This document shows, in pieces, positions 18,963-43,650 of a DNA stretch of 64,000 nucleotides. The first letter of the stretch is position 1, and each line of letters starts with the position of its first letter. Origin of the DNA: Natronobacterium texcoconense (GTDB lineage: Archaea > Halobacteriota > Halobacteria > Halobacteriales > Natrialbaceae); contig NZ_FNLC01000007.1 in assembly GCF_900104065.1 (NCBI RefSeq), positions 1 through 64,000 of the forward strand, given 5' to 3'. The position numbers were made by a program, and so were the translations under genes. The notes below the pieces were generated by a model. That model ran no database searches. It was not told where the DNA came from and saw only the letters and a list, made by a program, of their open reading frames with translations.

Positions 18963-19724
18963 ATGCGCGAATTCGCTTTTACCATCACCTACGACCGGGG
19001 TGCGGATCACCTGATGGACGTTTTCATCGACCACCCCGGTCTCTACGCGCGGACCGTCTCGTGTCAGGCGACCACCGAGACGATGTGGCGACTGGACGAG
19101 GTAACCGGTCCTCGAGAGGCACTGGCGGTCTACGACGACCGCCTCGCGAACCTCTCGCGGTGTTCCAGCCTCCGTGGAATGGGCGGCTGCTCGATCGACT
19201 GGACCTACGAGACGATCGCCGAACGCCCGACGCGTCGACTCATCTACTCCCGCCAGTCCGAGGGTGACGGCTGTCGGTCGGTGCCGTATCTCGCCGCGAA
19301 ACACCTCGAGGACGGCGTTCTCTGCCGGGCCGAACAGCACGGCCACGAGTACCGGTGGCGGCTCCTCGCCGAGGACGACGTCGCGGTTCGCTCTATCTAC
19401 GACGAACTGGGGGCGAACCTGCGTGACGGGCTCGCCCTCGAGTTCGAACGAGTCGGGGACTCGACCGACTGGCCCGACGACCTCGCGGAGCGTTCCAACC
19501 TGCCGTACAAACAGCGCGAGGCGCTCGAGCTGGCCGTCGAGTACGGCTACTACGACGATCCGCGTAGGATGTCGATCCAGGAAATCGCGGACGAAGAAGG
19601 GATTCCGACATCGACGCTACAGTACCGACTCACCCGCGCGGAGGCCTGGCTCGCCAGGACGTTCGTCTCGACCGACACGGGGGATCCAGTGGTGCAGGCG
19701 ATGGCGACGACGGCCGACGACTAG
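18963..19724 (+). CDS. HTH_10-domain transcription regulator (bacterio-opsin activator-like)
   Basis: A 253-residue regulator. The C-terminal HTH_10 domain runs from LPYKQREALELAVEYGYYDD through MSIQEIADEEGIPTSTLQYR. The N-terminal two thirds resembles the Bat-associated domain of haloarchaeal regulators, with conserved Cys and Gly in SRCSSLRGMGGCSIDW. The target genes are unknown. An opsin-like gene lies 44 kb away, too far to infer control. Its TAG stop (19722-19724) is part of the CTAG that begins an 88-bp repeat. The start MREFAFTITYD was preferred over a longer in-frame extension. Confidence 0.88.
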   Translation: MREFAFTITYDRGADHLMDVFIDHPGLYARTVSCQATTETMWRLDEVTGPREALAVYDDRLANLSRCSSLRGMGGCSIDWTYETIAERPTRRLIYSRQSEGDGCRSVPYLAAKHLEDGVLCRAEQHGHEYRWRLLAEDDVAVRSIYDELGANLRDGLALEFERVGDSTDWPDDLAERSNLPYKQREALELAVEYGYYDDPRRMSIQEIADEEGIPTSTLQYRLTRAEAWLARTFVSTDTGDPVVQAMATTADD

Positions 19725-19808
19725 TACCGTTCCAAGCGTCGACTGACAATCGAAATCGGGCGACCACCATCGATTTCTCCCAGCAGTTCCGGCTCGTGAC
19801 GCCACTAG
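19721..19808 (+). repeat. 88-bp CTAG-bounded palindromic element, copy A
   Basis: The element begins CTAGTACCGTTCCAAGC and ends with GACGCCACTAG. Internally CTG(N12)-type arms around a 14-base loop (GGGCGACCACCATC) pair imperfectly, with 9 of 15 positions matched. It has the same length and layout as the copies at 33933, 34017 and 43563. The first CTAG includes the stop codon of the HTH_10 gene. Confidence 0.8.
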
Positions 19809-30622: not shown

Positions 30623-30636
30623 GACAGCTAGCTGTC
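30623..30636. repeat. Perfect 14-bp palindrome at the TRAP permease stop codon
   Basis: GACAGCTAGCTGTC is self-complementary over 14 bases and contains the TAG stop of the TRAP permease gene (30628-30630, minus strand). It may contribute to transcript ending, or may be chance. Confidence 0.4.
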
Positions 30637-33360
30637 GCCGACAGTAGGCGTCGAGAACTCGCGGTTGTCCTCGAGTCCTCGAGTGCGGTTCCCGTAGGTG
30701 AGGCCCGCGAGCATCACCAGCCCGACCGCCCGTAGCGAGACGGTGATCGAGAAGATCGTCAGCGCGGAGGGAACGCCGAACAGCGCGAGCACGCCTTCGG
30801 CGATCAACAGCGGGATCTCCGGCACCATCAGCAGGACCGACGCAACCGAGTACAGTGCCCGCTTGGTCAGGGTTACTTCCGCGTACTGGTAGCCGATGAT
30901 CGTCACGCCGAGTGCGTAGACCCCGAGGAACATCCCGACGACCGGGATCACCACGTCGGGGATGAAGAAGCCGAGGTCGGCGACGTCGGCCCAGCCGATG
31001 ACGTTCCACCCCTCATCGCCCTCGCGCATGAGCAGGATGCCCGGTGAGAAGACGAAGGCGAACGGTACCAGGACCTTGTTCAGTGAGAGCAGGAACGCGA
31101 TCGTCGCGGTCTTCAACTCTTCTGCCTTCGCGACACCGGCGCCGGCGAACGCGGCCACGGCGACCGGCGGGGTGACGTCCGCCATCAGCCCGAAGTAGAG
31201 CACGAAGAGGTGTCCCGCGAGGATCGCAATTCCGGCGTCCTGGATCGGGCCGCCGAGCATCGCGATCAGGATGATGTACATCGCGGTCGTCGGCATCCCC
31301 ATCCCGAAGATGATCGAGGAGACACCCATCAGGATCAACAGCAACAGCATGGAGCCCCCGCTGACGACCTCGATGAGAGCCGCGAGGTTGGGGCCGAGTC
31401 CGGAGACGCTGATGACGCCGGGAACGACACCCGCCGCGGCGACGGCGACGACGACCGTCGTCGCGGTTCGTGCACCCGAGTCCATCGACTTCAGGACGAA
31501 CGTACTGAACCGGTAGGCCGTGTTCGACGACAGCGACGGCCGACCGATCACCGACGCGCTCTTTTCGGCCGCCTCGTCGACGTCCTCGTCGAGGTTCAGC
31601 AGCGGTGCGTCCGAACTCCGGTCGACGAGCAGGAAGGCAACGCTAACGAGGATCGTAATGATACCGAGGTCGGACGTGGCCGCGACCGCAGCCTCACCGA
31701 TGGCGTACGGCTCCGCGACAGCGTCAGCACCGGCCAGGACTTGGAGCGCGTGAACGAGTCCGCCGCCGGTCGCCGCGTACGCACCACCCTGGGCGAAATA
31801 GAGAACGCCGATCGTCGCAAGCAGCGGGACGCGCGTCCGTTCGTTGTAGGCCGCGACGACCGCGAGCAGCGCGATGACGGCGACGATCGTAAACCAACCG
31901 GCCCGGTTGACCGAGTACCGGGCGATGACGAGGAAGTAAAGCAGGAGGACGATCGGGATCAGGTAGAACCAGCCCGAACGGAGCTTCTCGAGTCCGTTTG
32001 GCAGCTCGGCCCGCGGAAGCCCACCGATACCGCCCCGGACGGCCTCGAAGTGGACCATAACCCACATCCCGAAGAAGAAGGCGATGGCGGGGAGAGTCGC
32101 GGCGATGATCACGTCCGCGTAGGGGGTTCCGGTGAACTCCATGATCAGGAACGCGGCAGCGCCCATCACCGGCGGGAGCATCTGGCCGCCCGAGGACGAC
32201 GAGGACTCGACTGCGCCGGAGAACTCCGGCGAGTAGCCCGATCGCTTCATCAGTGGGATCGTAAACGCGCCGGTCGTGACCGTGTTCGCGATCGACGACC
32301 CCGAGAGCATCCCCATGAAGCCACTCGAGACGACGCTGGCCTTCGCCGGCCCACCCTTCCGGGTGCCGGTCAGCGAGTAGGCCAGATCGATGAACCACTT
32401 GCCAGCACCGCTCATCTCGAGGAAGGCTCCGAAGAGGATGAAGATGTAGATGAAACGGACGCTGACGGCCACGGGCGTACTCATCACGCCCGCTTCGGTG
32501 GTGTACCAGAGGTTGTAGATGATGTTCCCCCAGGTTTCGGGCTGGATGGCGAGTGCTCCGACGACCGAGTCCCGCGGAACGAGGTAGCCCCAGCGGGCAT
32601 AGACGATAAAGGAGGCGACCAGCGACATGAGCAGGACGCCGAGTGCGCGCCGGGTCGCCTCGAGTACCAGCAGGATACCGAGTACGCCCATCAGGAACGC
32701 GTACGAAACTTCGTCGAGCGGGATGCCGATCGCGGCGACGGCCATCACGAGGGGCTCGAGCGACAGCGTGACGCCGTAGATATCCCACGAGGCGAACTCG
32801 TGGAGAGGCTCTCCCCCGTGAATGCCGAAGACGGCGAGATCCAGGATCTCGTCGAACGAGGTGATCATGTAGTGGACCGGGAGCAGCGCGAGACCGACGA
32901 ACACGACGTCGATCGGCGTGATCCGGCTCAGCGAGGGATCGACGATTGCCCAGTGGAGGAAATCACGGAGTCGATCGGTGACCCGTGCGAGTACGTGGTC
33001 CGGTCCGGTTCGACGGTGAATCGCGGACCTGAGTCTCCCCAGCAAGCCCGCGACTGCGCCGTCCCCCCTGCTCGCCGGGAACAACAGGAACGCTAGGACG
33101 AGCGCGAACGTGACGTGGATCGCGTTGACCTGCAGCAACTGCAGCGACACGAGTTGGAACTCGCCGATGCCCGGCAACGTGCCGCCAAACTGTCGGCCCC
33201 GAGCGGCGATCCACATCTGGAACGCCGAAAACGAGATACCGAGCAGCGTGACGACGAGTGCTGCCAGCCCGCGATGGCTTCGGCTTCGCTCGACTTCCTG
33301 TAGAATCTCCTCTTTCTCTTCTTCCGAAAGCCCGTCCGTGTCTCGATTGTCTACGCTCAT
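30628..33360 (-). CDS. TRAP-TAXI transporter fused membrane subunit (DctQM-like)
   Basis: A 910-residue integral membrane protein with the fused small (4-helix) and large (12-helix) TRAP permease domains plus extra C-terminal helices, the form that pairs with TAXI-type binding proteins. Family features include SGFMGMLSGSSIANTVTTGAFTIP and the mirrored IIFGMGMPTTAMYIILIAM. It moves an organic anion using an ion gradient. It lies last in the operon after the TAXI binding protein and the DUF1850 gene. Confidence 0.93.
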   Translation of the reverse strand: MSVDNRDTDGLSEEEKEEILQEVERSRSHRGLAALVVTLLGISFSAFQMWIAARGRQFGGTLPGIGEFQLVSLQLLQVNAIHVTFALVLAFLLFPASRGDGAVAGLLGRLRSAIHRRTGPDHVLARVTDRLRDFLHWAIVDPSLSRITPIDVVFVGLALLPVHYMITSFDEILDLAVFGIHGGEPLHEFASWDIYGVTLSLEPLVMAVAAIGIPLDEVSYAFLMGVLGILLVLEATRRALGVLLMSLVASFIVYARWGYLVPRDSVVGALAIQPETWGNIIYNLWYTTEAGVMSTPVAVSVRFIYIFILFGAFLEMSGAGKWFIDLAYSLTGTRKGGPAKASVVSSGFMGMLSGSSIANTVTTGAFTIPLMKRSGYSPEFSGAVESSSSSGGQMLPPVMGAAAFLIMEFTGTPYADVIIAATLPAIAFFFGMWVMVHFEAVRGGIGGLPRAELPNGLEKLRSGWFYLIPIVLLLYFLVIARYSVNRAGWFTIVAVIALLAVVAAYNERTRVPLLATIGVLYFAQGGAYAATGGGLVHALQVLAGADAVAEPYAIGEAAVAATSDLGIITILVSVAFLLVDRSSDAPLLNLDEDVDEAAEKSASVIGRPSLSSNTAYRFSTFVLKSMDSGARTATTVVVAVAAAGVVPGVISVSGLGPNLAALIEVVSGGSMLLLLILMGVSSIIFGMGMPTTAMYIILIAMLGGPIQDAGIAILAGHLFVLYFGLMADVTPPVAVAAFAGAGVAKAEELKTATIAFLLSLNKVLVPFAFVFSPGILLMREGDEGWNVIGWADVADLGFFIPDVVIPVVGMFLGVYALGVTIIGYQYAEVTLTKRALYSVASVLLMVPEIPLLIAEGVLALFGVPSALTIFSITVSLRAVGLVMLAGLTYGNRTRGLEDNREFSTPTVGDS

Positions 33361-33373
33361 AGTGTAAGATCAG

Positions 33374-33898
33374 TCATATAGCTGCGTGGATATTACCCGA
33401 GACCTCGTACTCGAGGGTTGAAACTGTGTCTATCCGAGTGGCGTCTGTCACTGTAATAACGACTGGGCCGTCGGACTGCTCGACCAGGTCGTATCGTTCG
33501 TCACCGACGACGAGTTCGTGTTCGGCGATCGGTGCGGGGACGACGCCCAGTTCCTCGTAGGAGTCGTCGCTGTAGACGACGAACCCGTCGTCGGTCCGCT
33601 CGATCGGCTTGTTCGCTGGTAACCCCGCTCCGTAGGAACGGAACACCATCCGATCCATGCGAAGCTCGGTTCCGTCGACGACGTAGACGTCCTCGATCGG
33701 CGTCTTCTCGACGCTGTGCGTGTACGAAAGCGTCACTTCGTCGCCGTCCTCGACCGGAATCTCGAGCAGTCGCTCACCGGTATCGGCGTCTTCGACGACG
33801 AGTGTCGATCCCGACGGCGCGACGACGACGGCGAGCGCCGCCGCTACGACGAACGCGAGAATACCGATCGCAACGCGCCGGCGGGTCGATCTGTCCAC
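33374..33898 (-). CDS. DUF1850 protein associated with TRAP-TAXI transporter
   Basis: A 174-residue protein with one N-terminal helix (about 8-27) and a beta-rich outer domain. The DUF1850 signature is visible as LSYTHSVEKTPIEDVYVV (residues 58-75) and FRSYGAGLPA. DUF1850 genes usually sit between TAXI binding proteins and the fused permease, as here, and may be accessory subunits. GTG start. It ends 13 bases before the permease gene. Confidence 0.9.
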   Translation of the reverse strand: MDRSTRRRVAIGILAFVVAAALAVVVAPSGSTLVVEDADTGERLLEIPVEDGDEVTLSYTHSVEKTPIEDVYVVDGTELRMDRMVFRSYGAGLPANKPIERTDDGFVVYSDDSYEELGVVPAPIAEHELVVGDERYDLVEQSDGPVVITVTDATRIDTVSTLEYEVSGNIHAAI

Positions 33899-33932
33899 GG
33901 TCGATAAATACGGTTGGTCGAAGGCGTTTCTG

Positions 33933-34020
33933 CTAGTGGCGATCCAAGCCCGACCTGCAGGGTCGAATCCGGCGATGTGGTTCGATTCGACCCTGCAGTC
34001 GACGCTTGGAACGGTACTAG
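33933..34020 (-). repeat. 88-bp CTAG-bounded palindromic element, copy B
   Basis: In minus orientation the copy starts CTAGTACCGTTCCAAGC and ends GGATCGCCACTAG. The inner arms CTGCAGGGTCGAATC and GATTCGACCCTGCAG pair perfectly over 15 bp around a 14-base loop. This is the best-formed of the four hairpins. Its CTAG at 34017-34020 is shared with copy C. Confidence 0.85.
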
Positions 34021-34104
34021 TGGCGATCCAGGCCTGAACTGGGAGGGCGAATTGAACTGCCCAACGGGATTCGCCCTCTCAGTCGAGGAGTGGAACGGTA
34101 CTAG
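34017..34104 (-). repeat. 88-bp CTAG-bounded palindromic element, copy C
   Basis: This copy is in direct tandem with copy B, sharing one CTAG. The inner arms CTGGGAGGGCGAAT and ATTCGCCCTCTCAG pair with one mismatch although the stem sequence differs from copy B, so pairing rather than sequence is kept. The outer CTAG at 34101-34104 contains the TAG stop of the TAXI gene. Confidence 0.85.
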
Positions 34105-35141
34105 TTGAAGTAGGCGTCAGCGCCAGGGTGGAGGTCGATCGGCATGCCGTCCTGGGCCGAGTCGACGTCGATGAAGTCCACCTTCTGGGTGACGTCGTCG
34201 GTGTTGTCGAAGATTGCCGCGGTGACGTCCTCGACGATCTCTTCGTCGACGCCCTCGTGGGTCGCGATCATCGCCTGCACGGAGACGGTGTCGACGTCTT
34301 CGTCGATACCGTCGTAGGTGCCTGCCGGGATGGTGTCCGCGGCGAACCACTCTGCGGCGTCCATGACGTCGTCACGGACGTCGCCGGCGATCTCGACGAG
34401 CGAGATGTCTTCGGTCGTCGCGAGTTCTTCGACTGCGCCGACCGGCCAGCCACCGACGACGAAGGCGGCGTCGACGTCACCGTCGCGGATCTGGTCCGCA
34501 GCGGCGTCGAAGTCGGCGTTCTGCTCGTCGAAGTCGTCCTCTTCGATGCCGGCGGCTTCCAGAATCTGCAGTGCGTTGACCTGGGTACCACTGCCGGCGT
34601 CACCGGTGACGACCGTCGCGCCCTCGAGGTCGGTGATCGTCTCGATCTCCGAGTCTTCCTGCGTGAGGACGTGGATCGTCTCGGGGTACAGCGTTGCGAC
34701 GCCGCGGATGTTCTCCATCGGCTCGCCCTCGAACTGCTCGAGGCCGGTTCCGTTGGCCGCGAAGTACCCGATGTCGTTCTGGATCAGGGCGAACTCGGCT
34801 TCCTCGCGGTGGAGGCTGCCGACGTTCGCGACGCTCGCACCGGTCGACTGCACCTGCAGTCCGTGGGCCGTGTGCTCCTCGACGATGCTCTTGAAGTCAC
34901 CGGACAGCGGGTAGTAGGTGCCACCCGTACCGCCGGCGTGCCACGAGAGCACTTCGCCTCCCTCGTCGGGCTGGGCGTCTCCGGCGTCGTCCTCGTCGCC
35001 ACCGTTGGCGTCTTCGTCACCGTTGTCGTCGGTATCGTCGCCGTTCTCGACGGCGTCTTCACCGACACAGCCAGCTAATCCGCTCAGTCCAGCAATCCCA
35101 GCAGCAGCGATAACCTGCCGCCGTTTGAGGTCTTTCACCAT
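34101..35141 (-). CDS. TAXI-family TRAP transporter solute-binding lipoprotein
   Basis: A 346-residue extracytoplasmic binding protein. The signal KRRQVIAAAGIAGLSGLAGC ends in a lipobox, with C25 lipidated by inference. An Asp/Asn/Gly-rich linker follows, then the TAXI domain starting LSWHAGGTGGTYYPLSGDFK. TAXI proteins bind small organic acids such as glutamate; the ligand here is undetermined. It leads the operon TAXI - repeats B and C - DUF1850 - fused permease. An inverted repeat flanks its promoter. Confidence 0.93.
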   Translation of the reverse strand: MVKDLKRRQVIAAAGIAGLSGLAGCVGEDAVENGDDTDDNGDEDANGGDEDDAGDAQPDEGGEVLSWHAGGTGGTYYPLSGDFKSIVEEHTAHGLQVQSTGASVANVGSLHREEAEFALIQNDIGYFAANGTGLEQFEGEPMENIRGVATLYPETIHVLTQEDSEIETITDLEGATVVTGDAGSGTQVNALQILEAAGIEEDDFDEQNADFDAAADQIRDGDVDAAFVVGGWPVGAVEELATTEDISLVEIAGDVRDDVMDAAEWFAADTIPAGTYDGIDEDVDTVSVQAMIATHEGVDEEIVEDVTAAIFDNTDDVTQKVDFIDVDSAQDGMPIDLHPGADAYFN

Positions 35142-43562: not shown

Positions 43563-43650
43563 CTGGTACCGTTCCAAGCGTCGACTGCTGAGTCGAATCG
43601 ACCCACACCGCTGGATTCGACCTAGCAGTTCAGGCTTGGACCGCCACCGG
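43563..43650 (+). repeat. 88-bp palindromic element, copy D
   Basis: It begins CTGGTACCGTTCCAAGC and ends GGACCGCCACCGG, the same boundaries as the other copies but with CTGG and CCGG in place of CTAG. The inner arms CTGCTGAGTCGAATC and GATTCGACCTAGCAG pair with two mismatches around a 14-base loop. It lies between the divergent amino-acid transporter and phosphate permease genes. Confidence 0.85.

Follow-up and report, generated by a model that had tools for sequence, protein, structure and literature searches.

Adjoining CTAG-bounded hairpin elements in a TRAP transporter operon of Natronobacterium texcoconense as probable nested IS630-type MITEs

How two copies of one short hairpin repeat came to lie side by side inside a transporter operon, joined by a single CTAG, and whether they serve that operon, is the question raised by a locus of Natronobacterium texcoconense (genome G000). 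The window analyzed is a 64,000 nt stretch of contig NZ_FNLC01000007.1. The features that bear on the question are as follows.

33933..34020, plus strand: putative MITE copy B, type I, 88 nt counted from CTAG to CTAG (covariance model R1, E 9.6e-25)
34017..34104, plus strand: putative MITE copy C, type I, 88 nt (model R1, E 2.1e-18)
33933..33936, no strand: outer CTAG of B
34017..34020, no strand: CTAG common to B and C
34101..34104, no strand: outer CTAG of C, holding the TAXI stop codon (minus strand, 34103-34101)
34101..35141, minus strand: gene for a TAXI-family TRAP solute-binding protein (TIGR02122, 3.4e-87)
33374..33898, minus strand: DUF1850 gene (PF08905, 4.4e-23)
30628..33360, minus strand: fused TRAP permease gene (TIGR02123, 1.3e-159)
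19721..19808, minus strand: putative MITE copy A, same family as B and C (model R1, E 1.0e-14)
43563..43650, minus strand: putative MITE copy D, same family as B and C (E 1.3e-22), end words no longer CTAG

B and C have the same orientation, and the CTAG at 34017-34020 is their whole overlap, exactly as the preliminary description had reported for this tandem of 88-bp copies. Its placement of the pair between the TAXI and DUF1850 genes was borne out by the TIGR02122 and PF08905 matches on either side. The permease gene lies downstream of DUF1850, and all three genes are on the minus strand. A partial Y1_Tnp transposase (IS200/IS605-type) stands at the very start of the contig (window 9-287, minus strand).

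Our reading, to which we assign a probability of roughly 0.92, is that B and C are two non-autonomous MITEs of the IS630/Tc1-mariner group, nested by separate insertions at CTAG. An IS630-type transposase acting in trans would putatively recognize ends of about 25 bp and place the element at the TA within a CTAG. The TA would be duplicated, and with a body that starts with G and ends with C, CTAG would be recreated at both ends, either of which could then receive another element. The first element would have landed at a CTAG where the TAXI gene ends, leaving two CTAGs; a later one would have entered either of these, so that B and C now have one CTAG in common.

The family is short (88 nt), non-coding and repeated, as MITEs are. 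A DNA search of the N. texcoconense genome gave 22 matches, and model R1 gave 42 at E <= 0.1, which fall into 26 distinct places once strands are merged (24 at E <= 1e-5). At E <= 0.001, R1 found matches in 21 of 61 genomes, N. texcoconense included; 20 of these belong to its own family and one to another family of the order, with 1 to at least 72 matches per positive genome. In G003, a genome of the same genus, the end pattern matched 152 + 155 times vs 12 + 12 for a reversed control. The sampled loci of that genome held 118 distinct type I/II copies, among them 13 type I copies identical to one another. These identical copies and the high end-pattern count suggest that the family was recently active in G003. 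A looser end pattern allowing three mismatches was discarded as uninformative, its reversed control matching more often than the pattern itself. One N. texcoconense copy (L034, C1:242701-242788) has TGA at both body ends where TA is expected. In G023 another palindrome adjoins the elements (L192, L194), reading CTATAG...CTATAG in L194, and similar sequence flanks a copy in N. texcoconense (L016).

Both elements fold as long hairpins. On the plus strand, B reaches -56.9 kcal/mol (z -10.3) and C -51.2 kcal/mol (z -7.6), with 0 of 200 shuffles as good in either case; the minus-strand folds, which correspond to the sense RNA, are -52.3 kcal/mol (z -8.4) and -41.8 kcal/mol (z -6.3), respectively. 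Across 17 aligned near-full-length N. texcoconense copies, 94% of the stem cells are paired. Cells changed on both sides number 25 vs a shuffle mean of 8.6 (0 of 500 as high), and nine stem pairs carry a change on both sides vs 5.1 in shuffles (1 of 500). A larger alignment (A2, 99 rows) was left out of these pair counts, since many copies stood in it on both strands. The compensating changes show a maintained palindrome and not an RNA function, because the kinship of the copies can inflate such counts. A plain model based on terminal inverted repeats does not require compensating changes, and this counts against the IS630-MITE reading. An Rfam scan of window 33700-34300 gave nothing above threshold, its two miRNA matches scoring 19.9 and 17.8 bits vs gathering scores of 196 and 142.

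The ends of the elements point to CTAG as the insertion target. This word is scarce in the window (26 occurrences vs 60.8 expected from trinucleotides), and the ends of copies A, B and C account for five of them. IS630 reportedly prefers the TA in 5'-CTAG-3', as the title of a 1991 paper by Tenzen and Ohtsubo is said to state. Empty and filled sites can be compared within G003 in a hairpin repeat, X, of about 75 bp with an internal CTAG (49 matches, some places being matched on both strands; L198-L226). X copies without an element read GTAA-CTAG-TTACAG, the filled copy L097 reads GTAA-[CTAG + 80 nt]-CTAG-TTACAG, and in L090 the same spot within X is taken by two modules, one of type III and one of type I. 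Among 29 empty X copies fetched, 18 have CTAG at the insertion place. One X copy (L215) itself interrupts a type I element and is flanked by TGA on either side. Throughout the sampled G003 loci, the body is preceded by CTA and followed by TAG in 110 of 118 type I/II copies; seven of the remaining eight deviate on one side only.

Comparisons between species gave a mixed picture. G001 and G002 lack an element at the site of copy C2:823995 and have one CTAG there, which by frame reading serves both convergent genes as stop codon; in G003 an element of a different type (II) occupies the site. The C3:72697 site holds no copy in G001 or G002, one in N. texcoconense and two modules in G003; the left neighbor is the same gene, and the right flank differs in G003. 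The C1:281381 site is occupied in both N. texcoconense and G003 by type I copies that point the same way and belong to different subtypes. The other cross-species empty sites examined (L009, L010, L012, L018) had no clear CTAG and add no support. Together, the sites show CTAG as the target in G003 and its recreation at both ends. Duplication of TA and duplication of CTAG would look alike at such sites; we infer that the duplicated unit is TA. IS630-family elements are described, in the sections of the source available, as inserting at TA with duplication of TA (PMC2170065).

Whether the B-C pair records two insertions or one insertion followed by duplication can be judged from the copies themselves. 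Slippage or unequal recombination would leave two copies in the same orientation with one common CTAG, just as found. However, B and C are only 68% identical, and C is the least similar to B among 16 other copies. The nearest relatives are elsewhere, C5:138988 for B (87.5%) and C3:393038 for C (80.7%). The low identity, and the closer resemblance of each to a copy elsewhere, argue for two insertions. Moreover, 65 of 67 shared-CTAG junctions in G003 join different types. These results contradict a tandem duplication unless it was old and followed by conversion from other copies, and we consider such an origin hardly credible. The preliminary description had proposed that one copy inserted at the CTAG end of the other. 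Separate insertion at CTAG gains support from the empty and filled sites within G003, the CTA and TAG flanks of its 110 copies, the 67 junctions and the low identity of B and C.

Junctions of this kind are common in G003. Its sampled array loci (L087-L116 and L341-L380) held 141 modules of three types in 74 arrays, 46 of which have two to four modules, and the 67 shared-CTAG junctions occur in many combinations of type and orientation. Modules sharing a CTAG were also found in G023 (L192) and G024 (L190, L191). Same-type neighbors account for only 2 of the 67 junctions vs a mean of 23.6, and none of 5000 within-array label shuffles was as low. The loci were picked mainly via type I matches, which should not hide I-I pairs and does shape the composition. 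In the first 27 arrays, types I and II met only in opposite orientation (11 of 11 cases); the larger sample had 17 of 33, and the apparent rule was dropped. The rarity of same-type neighbors could be caused by target immunity, by rapid recombinational loss of same-type repeats or by the order of bursts. Target immunity is not known for IS630. B-C, a diverged I-I pair, would fit the account by recombinational loss. A wider scheme is conceivable in which at least three related MITE types would land at each other's CTAG ends and, subject to an exclusion rule, assemble into modular hairpin arrays at the ends of genes, the palindromic core being selected for movement or as a 3'-end mRNA element. 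We hold it to be speculative and unlikely.

The link to IS630 comes from IS630-family elements with matching ends. A PF13358 (DDE_3) search gave matches in 11 of 17 genomes. Two elements of G020, from a related genus, carry an IS630 transposase between CTAG-bounded ends (L279:1346-2563, 1218 bp; L287:1346-2562, 1217 bp), and their 25-nt ends match those of the MITEs at 21-23 of 25 positions. As a control, 196 CTAG ends in 30 DDE_3 loci were scored; the best MITE-end score was at most 16 in 187 and at least 20 in 9. The L279 transposase matches PF13358 at 3.9e-28 over all 146 positions; against NF033545, its C-terminal frame scores 151 bits (cut-off 100) and its N-terminal frame 64 bits, below the cut-off. 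In L279 and L287 the transposase is read in two frames that part close to a stretch of A, an arrangement resembling programmed frameshifting. Less similar elements in G006, G019, G030 and G031 have CTAG ends matching at 16-21 of 25 positions, in G019 in only one of three copies. A MITE and an IS630 end have one CTAG in common in L279, L281 and L306. The subterminal CTAG spacing of type III, 26 nt, is the same as in the G020 elements, and a transposase remnant is attached to a type III end in G003. Another match, L322, had seemed to be an IS630 element with type III ends; on reading the sequence, it turned out to be a type III MITE interrupted by another IS. Because the IS630-family elements bear matching CTAG-bounded 25-nt ends, B and C would be MITEs of IS630 type.

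The distribution of the transposase counts against this reading. Relatives of the G020 transposase at E <= 1e-20 occur in 9 of 36 genomes, and N. texcoconense and G003 are not among them; N. texcoconense gave no DDE_3 match at all in the PF13358 search. G009 and G023 have the MITE and no DDE_3 match, and G031 has the transposase and no MITE match. Since N. texcoconense and G003 are without a close relative of the G020 transposase, the presence of the MITE and that of the transposase do not go together. We infer that the IS630 group found here is the transposase source, and the N. texcoconense copies, B and C included, are probably immobile now.

Mobile repeats of this shape could also be moved by a different enzyme. 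On this view they would be REP-like units, mobilized by a Y1 transposase of IS200/RAYT type acting on single-stranded hairpins at CTAG. In its favor, the hairpins are imperfect and show compensating changes, the ends bear a fixed tetranucleotide, and target-specific single-strand insertion would give an identical CTAG pattern. An intact Y1 transposase was nevertheless not found in G003, the genome with the most copies and the largest burst; its three Y1_Tnp matches are partial and cover 42-84 of 121 positions. The same ends are, moreover, borne by IS630 elements. We regard movement by Y1 as very improbable and retain the IS630-type MITE reading.

The position of B-C beside a stop codon is not peculiar to this pair. 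The 17 aligned copies have 34 ends, and at 15 of them the terminal word provides the stop codon for an open frame of 120 codons or more; for the other stop codons in these loci the figure is 175 of 1336. The word is CTAG at these ends except in three, where it is GTAG or CTAA; an open frame is no proof of a gene, and part of the 15 could be spurious. The elements tend to lie at gene ends because CTAG is rare and often a stop codon.

The preliminary description had also suggested that the two hairpins could give the binding protein and the permease different mRNA levels. On such a reading B and C, once MITEs, would now act in the mRNA to fix how much binding protein is made relative to permease. 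Two strong sense-RNA hairpins do lie between the TAXI and DUF1850 genes, the family stem is kept by compensating changes, and hairpins at mRNA ends can protect the upstream RNA. However, the covariation belongs to the whole family and not to the B-C place, and the CTAG target word alone can explain the position. On its sense strand, the TAXI-DUF1850 spacer lacks any stretch of four or more T, which gives no hint of a U-tract terminator. The corresponding spacers of seven related operons (G001, G002, G005, G009, G023, G024, G036) contain no element, and B-C is thus not a conserved control element of the operon. No R1 match at E <= 0.1 was found in 21 loci with a TAXI relative, namely those seven operons and 14 more chosen regardless of whether DUF1850 follows (one of them the G002 locus again). 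A stabilizing or processing role of the hairpins is possible; their adoption as a ratio-setting element we consider decidedly unlikely.

Elements of this kind, IS630-type MITEs, are already known. Among the closest is RUP of Streptococcus pneumoniae, presented in the parts available of two sources as a 107-nt hairpin-forming repeat at about 110 places, a hairpin MITE with a TA target and ends resembling those of an IS630 element, IS630-Spn1 (PMC3049150, PMC2229807). RUP shares the gene-end bias, being over-represented between convergent genes according to the available part of one of them (PMC3049150). Unlike RUP, the present family has CTAG as target in 110 of 118 G003 copies, forms multi-type arrays sharing one CTAG and has an archaeal host. 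IS630 of Shigella sonnei, likened by target alone, has the preference for TA in CTAG, but is autonomous and bacterial. MITEPsy1 of Pseudomonas syringae, as described in the available text, is a 100-nt MITE that inserts at CTAG or YTAA; it differs in duplicating 4 nt and in being likened to ISPsy2, with the family given as 'IS5?' (PMC3189936). The MITEs, PATEs and SMRs of Haloquadratum walsbyi are likewise short, transposase-free haloarchaeal repeats, some without a working transposase in the same genome, and CTAG is strongly avoided on that chromosome; the available portions of this source, however, name no IS630-linked MITE and no CTAG target (PMC3119063). Literature searches on haloarchaeal, CTAG-linked and IS630-linked MITEs yielded no description of the B/C family.

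Herein, the exclusion pattern within the arrays emerges as the most interesting lead. The proposed origin of B and C would account for a haloarchaeal repeat family whose copies often adjoin stop codons and form arrays, and would link it to a transposase group. It also advises caution: in these genomes, a hairpin at the end of a gene can be the footprint of a transposon and not a regulator. Depending on a depleted word and adding to its number with every insertion, such an element would be well suited to studying how the supply of targets and the limits on self-insertion shape mobile DNA.
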